From Singulisphaera sp. GP187 (lineage in GTDB: Bacteria; Planctomycetota; Planctomycetia; Gemmatales; Gemmataceae), in contig CAMDQN010000018.1 of assembly GCA_945905925.1 (NCBI GenBank), positions 1 to 64,000 on the forward strand: 64,000 nt of DNA, given 5' to 3'. The notes under the pieces were generated by a model. That model ran no database searches. It was not told the origin of the DNA and worked only from the letters and a program-made list of their open reading frames with translations. This document shows positions 26,390 to 42,719 of this stretch, piece after piece (position 1 is the first letter of the stretch; each line of letters starts with the position of its first letter). The translations under genes and the position numbers were made by a program.

Positions 26390-29522
<3,133 letters not shown>

Positions 29523-41064: not shown

Positions 41065-41625
41065 ATGGCGTCCGGTGGCCTGCCCCAACTAATCAATGCG
41101 CATTACGAAGCTCTCTACCGGTACGCCTACCGATTGAGCGGGTCGTCGGCCGACGCCGAAGACCTCACTCAAGAGACGTTCGGGAAGGCACTCGCCCGGT
41201 TGCCACAGCTCCGCGAACCGGACCGCGCCAAAGCCTGGCTGTTCCGAATTCTGCGGAACCTGTATCTGCATAAGATCCGCGACCAGAAGCGGCACAAGGT
41301 GATCCCGCTCGACACCACCGGCGACCTGCCCGCACGCGTCAGCGACGACCACACACTGGATATCGATCCCGCGAAGTTGCAGCAGGCGCTCGACGAACTG
41401 GATGAAACGTTTCGGACGCCCATCATCCTGTTCTATTTTGGAGAGTTCAGTTACCGCGACATCGCCGCGCAAATGGATCTGCCGATTGGAACGGTGATGT
41501 CGCGACTGGCGCGGGGAAAGTCTTACTTGCGAACTCGCTTGAGCCCAACCGACGAAGCGCACCACGAACGGCCCTCACTCCCGACAGAGGCCGTTGCGAA
41601 GCAGGTGACCGATGGAATGCCGTGA
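41065..41625 (+). CDS. ECF-type RNA polymerase sigma factor
   Basis: 186 residues. Region 2 is at about 8-75 (YEALYRYAYRLSGSSADAED and LTQETFGKALARLPQL, then KAWLFRILRNLYLHKIRD), and region 4 at about 105-165 (LQQALDELDETFRTPIILFY, then FSYRDIAAQMDLPIGTVMSR). There is no region 1.1 or 3, as expected for extracytoplasmic-function sigma factors. It would direct RNA polymerase to a small regulon. The downstream gene overlaps by 14 bp and encodes its probable anti-sigma factor. Confidence 0.92.
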   Translation: MASGGLPQLINAHYEALYRYAYRLSGSSADAEDLTQETFGKALARLPQLREPDRAKAWLFRILRNLYLHKIRDQKRHKVIPLDTTGDLPARVSDDHTLDIDPAKLQQALDELDETFRTPIILFYFGEFSYRDIAAQMDLPIGTVMSRLARGKSYLRTRLSPTDEAHHERPSLPTEAVAKQVTDGMP

Positions 41626-42373
41626 CGCCCAATTTTACCTGAGGATGCGCCGACACGCGGCCGACGAACTCGGCCCGGACGTGACCGCTCCGCTCGACGC
41701 GCACCTGGCAACCTGCCCGGCGTGCGCCGCCGACGCCCGCGAACTGATGTCGTTCGACCGCGCCGTCGCGTCCACGATGGTCAACGTTCCTATTCCTTCT
41801 GGGTTGCGCGCCCGGCTCATCGCGTCCGGCGCGGAAAAGCAAGGCACGGCCCTCCGCCGCAAGGCGTATCGGGCCGTGGCCGCTCTCGCGGCGTCGCTTC
41901 TGTTCGCGGGTCTCGCGCTCGGCGTGTTCACCAATACGCGCCCCAAACCGAACAACGACGAACTCGTCGCGCTCAACGACCGCCTGTTGAGCGACCCGCA
42001 ACAATCCACCAAGGAATGGCTCGCGGCGCAAAAGCTCCCAAATGAACTCCCACTGCCGTTCGATTACACCCTTCTCGTATCCCTCGGGTACGAGAAGGTG
42101 AACGGTCGGGACGTTCCGGTGATCGTGTTCCGCAGTCCGCACCCGGATCCCGCGAACCTCGGCGAACCCGCCGGGTTCGCGAAGGTGTACCTGTTCCCGC
42201 ACGACGGCCGGTTCGACCTGAAGAACCTTCAGGAATCGCAGGCTTCGCTCACGCGTGCGCAGGTCTACGTCGGACGGGATGCCTATCGCGGCGTGACCTA
42301 TGTGTTCGTCCACACCGGGCGAGACCTGCAAAAGTTCTTCCGCACCGGCAACGTTGGCGCGATCCACATCTGA
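41612..42373 (+). CDS. Zinc-finger anti-sigma factor
   Basis: 253 residues. The N-terminal anti-sigma zinc-finger (ZAS) has Cys3, then HLATCPACAADARELMSFDR with the H-x3-C-x2-C pattern at about 31-38. One transmembrane helix is at about 85-108 (AVAALAASLLFAGLALGVF). The extracytoplasmic part of about 140 residues is of unknown fold (YTLLVSLGYEKVNGRDVPVI, QVYVGRDAYRGVTYVFVHTG) and presumably senses a signal. It is translationally coupled to the sigma gene (14-bp overlap). Release of the sigma factor on signal is the expected mechanism for this family. Confidence 0.88.
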   Translation: MECRDAQFYLRMRRHAADELGPDVTAPLDAHLATCPACAADARELMSFDRAVASTMVNVPIPSGLRARLIASGAEKQGTALRRKAYRAVAALAASLLFAGLALGVFTNTRPKPNNDELVALNDRLLSDPQQSTKEWLAAQKLPNELPLPFDYTLLVSLGYEKVNGRDVPVIVFRSPHPDPANLGEPAGFAKVYLFPHDGRFDLKNLQESQASLTRAQVYVGRDAYRGVTYVFVHTGRDLQKFFRTGNVGAIHI

Positions 42374-42479
42374 CCACCGAACCCGCTCTTTGCGGCACCG
42401 AACCAGTCTCGGGTTCGCTGCTTTTCTCGCGTCCGCAGTTGCGTAACCAACTCCTTTCTTCGTTCGCCCGAGGTGCGTG

Positions 42480-42719
42480 ATGAACATCGAACTGAAATAC
42501 TGTTCGGTCTGAGGATACGAATCGAAGGCCCTCAGTTTGACGGCCGTGCTGTTGAGCAGTTTTAAGCAGAAGATCAAGGAGTTCACCCTGGTTCCCGCCG
42601 GCGGCGGGTGCTTTGAAGTGACGGTCAACGGCGAGTTGGTCTACTCGAAACTCCAGGCCGGGAAGTTCCCCGATGAGCAAACCGTTCTCGAATCCGTGCG
42701 GGACCGGTTGAAGAAGTGA
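42480..42719 (+). CDS. selW: SelW-like selenoprotein (Rdx family), in-frame TGA = selenocysteine
   Basis: 79 residues from ATG 42480, with GAGG 6 nt upstream. It starts MNIELKYCSVUGYESKALSL: the in-frame TGA at 42510-42512 falls exactly on the second position of the CxxU redox motif (C8-S-V-U11) of the SelW/SelT/Rdx family. After it the frame is open and family-like, with FTLVPAGGGCFEVTVNGELV, YSKLQAGKFPDEQTVLESVR and the C-terminus DRLKK. A 6-bp stem starting at the TGA could be the SECIS (42509-42535). Reading only from the later TTG or GTG codons would drop the strand and redox site. The function is probably thiol-based redox. It needs selA, selB, selC and selD, which are not in the window. 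Confidence 0.88.
42509..42535 (+). promoter_or_regulatory. Candidate bacterial SECIS element
   Basis: CTGAGG (42509-42514, containing the Sec TGA) pairs with CCTCAG (42530-42535) around a 15-nt loop ATACGAATCGAAGGC. Bacterial SECIS elements lie immediately 3' of the UGA within the coding region, as here. The stem is short but perfect. The loop's fit to SelB is not tested. Confidence 0.65.

Follow-up and report, generated by a model that had tools for sequence, protein, structure and literature searches.

The window analysed here, a 64,000-nucleotide stretch of Singulisphaera sp. GP187 DNA (contig CAMDQN010000018.1, positions 1 to 64,000 of the forward strand), carries a short selW-like gene directly preceded on the same strand by genes for an ECF sigma factor and an anti-sigma factor (Table 1). 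The selW frame starts at the ATG in 42480, translates as MNIELKYCSV-TGA-GYESKALSLTAVLLSSFKQKIKEFTLVPAGGGCFEVTVNGELVYSKLQAGKFPDEQTVLESVRDRLKK-TGA and terminates at the second of these TGA codons (42717-42719). The original prediction had read this frame as a SelW-like selenoprotein whose internal TGA falls on the selenocysteine (Sec) position of the redox motif, is flanked by Rdx-like sequence, follows a properly spaced Shine-Dalgarno sequence and opens an RNA stem. The GAGGTG hexamer stands where such a ribosome-binding site is expected, and motifs of the AGGAG or GGAG type are found 5' of the ATG in several relatives. Elsewhere in the window, a group I intron (27130-27453, minus strand, Rfam 74.9 bits) lies inside the 23S rRNA gene (26390-29521).

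Table 1. Features of the selW locus, in window coordinates.
Feature	Position	Strand	Remarks
ECF sigma-70 factor gene	41065..41625	+	Sigma70_r2 2.7e-18, Sigma70_r4_2 5e-13
Anti-sigma factor gene	41612..42373	+	N-terminal HxxxCxxC zinc-finger motif (HLATCPAC)
Shine-Dalgarno-like GAGGTG	42470..42475	+	4 nt before the ATG
selW-like gene	42480..42719	+	79 aa if UGA is read as Sec, MNIELKYCSVUGYESKALSLTAVLL...
Redox motif C8-S-V-U11	42501..42512	+	aligned with the CxxC of the solved Rdx proteins 2fa8 and 2p0g
In-frame TGA, predicted Sec codon 11	42510..42512	+	second redox position of CxxU
Stem CTGAGG/CCTCAG	42509..42535	+	present, not conserved as a stem
Predicted bacterial SECIS hairpin	42527..42545	+	GGCC C TCA [GTT] TGA C GGCC; covariation over 40 sequences

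For profile and structure comparisons, a cysteine was placed at the TGA position of the 79-residue product. Residues 2-75 of this product match Pfam Rdx (PF10262) with 77.4 bits (cut-off 22.6, E 1e-21), and the TIGR02174 model CXXU_selWTH, which describes the SelT/SelW/SelH proteins, is matched with 74.7 bits (cut-off 34.2, E 5.4e-21). The homology therefore extends on both sides of the TGA, as had been proposed, and places it at the second position of the CxxU motif. Residues 3-73 also align with the Campylobacter SelT/W/H model NF041051 (SelTWH_Campy, E 1.4e-19), and the score of 70.1 bits remains below the equivalog cut-off of 88, so that the protein is a relative of this group and not a member. 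Among proteins of known structure, matches were obtained with C17orf37 and several bacterial Rdx proteins and, weakly, with selenoprotein W (2npb, E 0.001); in the alignments shown, the TGA falls on the second cysteine of CxxC. Y7, C8, position 11 and Y13 are invariant in alignment A1, and the gene is the only Rdx gene detected genome-wide. SelW-like proteins are an established family of bacterial selenoproteins (PMC1794560) and were the most abundant selenoprotein family in an ocean metagenome survey (PMC2398784). The window gene is a further member of this already known family (TIGR02174, PF10262; PMC1794560, PMC2398784, PMC13188914), with which it shares the fold family, the length, the N-terminal CxxU with Sec at the second motif position and an in-frame downstream SECIS. 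Nothing essential differs, the SECIS being distinguished here by a tight GUU loop and a stem with a C.C mismatch.

The conservation of the codon was followed in three sets of genomes. Unrelated sequence across the TGA in close relatives would have counted against the prediction; the TGA was instead found at the identical codon in 12/12 relatives from a separate genome collection (Gemmata, other planctomycetes and Chloroflexota). Of 95 genomes of the family, 75 possess the gene; a TGA-containing copy occurs in 74 of them, and most matches display exactly one TGA. Copies with an exceptional codon or frame were read in detail: the sole genome without a TGA copy (G005, L068, contig C172) has a glycine codon, GGT, in place of Sec, G047 contains a separate CxxC paralogue (L070) and G087 a frameshifted copy (L074). 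L068 furthermore reads GGSFE where the others read GGCFE, and its genome still encodes SelB. In a phylum-wide sample, 140 of 392 genomes gave a match, mostly with one TGA, and in the TGA copies read from this sample the TGA is located at codon 11. A divergent second SelW-like gene, which reads CTS-U-GYR and has both a TGA of its own and a hairpin with compensated pairs, was observed in two genomes (L072, G082:C29; L073, G069:C8). The dN/dS of selW amounts to about 0.09-0.12 against two relatives of the genus, a value which indicates purifying selection across the TGA.

These observations bear on two readings in which no selenocysteine is involved. The gene might be a pseudogene, or a TGC or TGT cysteine codon might have been mutated or mis-assembled to TGA, since a single base change suffices and the assembly is fragmented into 251 contigs; the recurrence of the TGA in all 12 relatives and in almost every further copy read, together with the low dN/dS, leaves this reading a negligible probability. 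The frame might also consist of two short genes, with a short upstream peptide and a restart at the TTG in 42537, as the ORF listing contains a 60-residue TTG frame (42537-42719) that a gene finder might take. The product of such a restart would be deprived of the first strand and redox motif of the Rdx domain, both conserved upstream of the TGA, and the split is regarded as extremely improbable. Conservation and purifying selection were accordingly the grounds for rejecting pseudogene, assembly error, readthrough and restart alike.

A selenoprotein gene implies that the host possesses the corresponding decoding machinery. The host assembly (6.47 Mb, 96.6% complete) was found to contain all four predicted components: a tRNA-Sec (selC) with anticodon UCA (C5:65197-65290, 69.5 bits, cut-off 47), SelB as a single 714-residue frame on contig C174 (365 bits, cut-off 242), SelA on contig C2 (555.6 bits) and SelD on contig C53 (387 bits). 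Neither selB nor selC, whose absence would have spoken against the prediction, is thus lacking. The four genes reside on four contigs and do not form one operon as assembled. A second Rfam tRNA-Sec match (L002, G000:C5:83745-83849, 49.8 bits, over the cut-off) was noted 18 kb from the first, and ARAGORN found no tRNA at this position. SelB exceeds the cut-off in 81 of the 95 family genomes, and Gemmata obscuriglobus is reported to possess genes for Sec insertion (PMC4807772). The host genome also holds a second Sec gene, FdhA (L154, G000:C142:4643-6502), with one in-frame TGA in the context SNRT-U-HAPSVVGLA; positions 1-51 of its profile match about 2.7 kb further downstream (C142:9202-9354).

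The frame and its conservation do not by themselves name the amino acid, and the UGA could in principle be decoded by other means, either by stop readthrough or by assignment to Trp, Gly or Cys. The complete SelA/SelB/SelC/SelD set, the location of the TGA at the redox cysteine position of a family known for its selenoproteins (PMC1794560) and the covarying SECIS hairpin described below all argue against such decoding, and TGA is also used as an ordinary stop, for example to terminate selW itself. Decoding without Sec is consequently considered very unlikely. Selenocysteine is retained as the reading of codon 11, and the gene is almost certainly that of a SelW-like, thioredoxin-fold selenoprotein of the Rdx family with a CxxU redox centre, as judged from sequence.

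The element that would recruit the Sec machinery differs from the one initially put forward. The hairpin listed in Table 1 is composed of 4 bp, a C.C mismatch (42531/42541), 3 bp and a G-U-U loop (42535-42537), with a spacing of 22 nt between the UGA and the loop G. The loop G is present in 74/74 and the U in 73/74 distinct sequences, despite the alternation of Ser and Gly at codon 19. Within a set of 40 sequences, six of the eight pairs have changed on both sides in at least one case; the covariation score of 0.326 compares with a shuffle mean of 0.186, is reached by none of 500 shuffles and falls to 0.097 or less when the partners are slid. Compensated variants are exemplified by GTCAGTTTGAC, CTCAGTTTGAG and ATCAGTTTGAT, and by ACCAGTTTGGT in the divergent second paralogue L073. 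The C.C mismatch originates from a leucine codon (CTC) instead of valine (GTC) at codon 18, with no matching change on the 3' side. It is common to L060, L064, L083 and L086; the position is unpaired in 3 of the 40 rows, most relatives being paired there.

The stem CTGAGG/CCTCAG (arms 42509-42514 and 42530-42535), proposed at first as starting at the TGA, does exist and belongs to the minimum-energy fold of the isolated window RNA. Its first three pairs join the invariant UGA to the UCA that is conserved as part of the other hairpin; of the two pairs that follow the UGA, the first forms in only 8/40 and the second in only 28/40 sequences. It was therefore rejected as the SECIS, the covarying element being the overlapping downstream hairpin, which shares bases 42530-42535 with it; this choice of stem is the single detail in which the otherwise supported selenoprotein prediction erred. 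When the UGA and the next bases are removed before folding, in order to mimic their coverage by the ribosome, the conserved hairpin becomes the predicted fold at about -9 kcal/mol (-8.8 in the window). The model suggests that the hairpin would refold in this manner on the ribosome when the UGA region is covered. Decoding may be less efficient in the window gene because of the C.C mismatch and because the isolated fold favours the competing stem.

The covarying pairs, and a core recurring in FdhA and in E. coli fdhF, identify the hairpin at sequence level as a bacterial SECIS. In the host FdhA, GTCGTC-GGT-CTGGCGAC is found 3' of the TGA, with the shared core GTC-GGT-CTGGC. The E. coli fdhF stretch, TGA CAC GGC CCA TCG GTT GCA GGT CTG, contains GGTCTG at the same codon distance as FdhA (the query letters matched at 100%). 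Like that of selW, the fdhF SECIS has a GU-bearing apical loop at a fixed distance after the UGA and within the coding sequence. In SelW the loop occupies the eighth codon after the UGA, one codon more distant than in fdhF and the host FdhA, where it is the seventh, and no bulged U can be made out in the stem of SelW. A search of the genome with an RNA model of the hairpin (R1) returned the window match as the only significant one; as the FdhA SECIS ranked only fourth (E 9.3), R1 is unsuitable for listing other selenoproteins. In SelW genes of other planctomycetes (L108, L110, L111, L113 and L117), GTGAGCCTG replaces the usual hairpin, for which a different stem, CAGGC/GCCTG closing a CGTGA loop, may act as a substitute.

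In three relatives, L065 (G036:C121) and L067 (G037:C222) from one genus and L066 (G066:C82) from another, SelW reads Y-U-x-x-U with TGA at both redox cysteine positions, while the window protein is the single-Sec CxxU form. This arrangement appears from the sequences to have arisen twice independently, because the nearest other relatives of each lineage have cysteine at the first position. The comparison of L065 with L067 (dS 0.53, dN/dS 0.15) indicates that the two-TGA gene is kept under purifying selection, and SelB is over the cut-off in all three genomes. We lean towards a double-Sec U-x-x-U SelW in two Gemmataceae-like lineages, with both UGAs served by one conserved SECIS hairpin; the doubt mainly concerns the first UGA, whose distance from the hairpin exceeds that of the usual one by nine bases. 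Three other candidates (L119, L134 and L135) were discarded, their second TGA being the terminal stop. From a point slightly ahead of the second TGA until beyond the stop, the selW genes of L066 and L077 have the same sequence, but their 5' ends and the bases immediately upstream differ; the pattern resembles a recombination mosaic bounded close to the first TGA. UxxU motifs are described in Prx-like, mercuric-reductase-like and FmdB-like prokaryotic selenoproteins (PMC13188914, PMC9312934), and the main texts of the same reviews name no motif for SelW-like proteins other than CxxU with a single Sec.

As for the neighbouring genes, the anti-sigma product scores 22.0 bits with zf-HC2 (cut-off 22.2) and 5.5e-9 with NF052375, below the model cut-off. 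In 10 relatives the three genes follow one another on the same strand as sigma, anti-sigma and selW, and the anti-sigma alignment ends about 120-170 nt 5' of selW; in most other relatives examined, no sigma or anti-sigma match occurs within the selW flank. This arrangement, along with general knowledge of zinc-finger anti-sigma factors, suggests that selW could be linked to the sigma/anti-sigma pair and to redox stress.

The proposed mechanism is built on the established frame, family, TGA conservation, covarying hairpin, full Sec machinery and second TGA-containing Sec gene, and can be summarized as follows. Upon arrival of the ribosome at the UGA in codon 11 of the selW mRNA, SelB-GTP carrying Sec-tRNA-Sec would bind the G-U-loop hairpin that follows closely within the coding mRNA and deliver selenocysteine, giving rise to the CxxU redox centre. 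The resulting SelW would be a small thiol/selenol oxidoreductase, probably forming a C8-U11 selenenylsulfide, and perhaps plays a role in the oxidative-stress response.

Selenoprotein genes are routinely missed or truncated by gene finders and the selenoproteomes of planctomycetes are little described. The selW alignment provides a clean covarying SECIS model for SelW, and the UxxU relatives offer a way to ask how one bacterial SECIS could serve two UGAs separated by nine bases, and what role a diselenide would have in the SelW fold. Selenocysteine use is common in this planctomycete family, with SelW as a frequent target.
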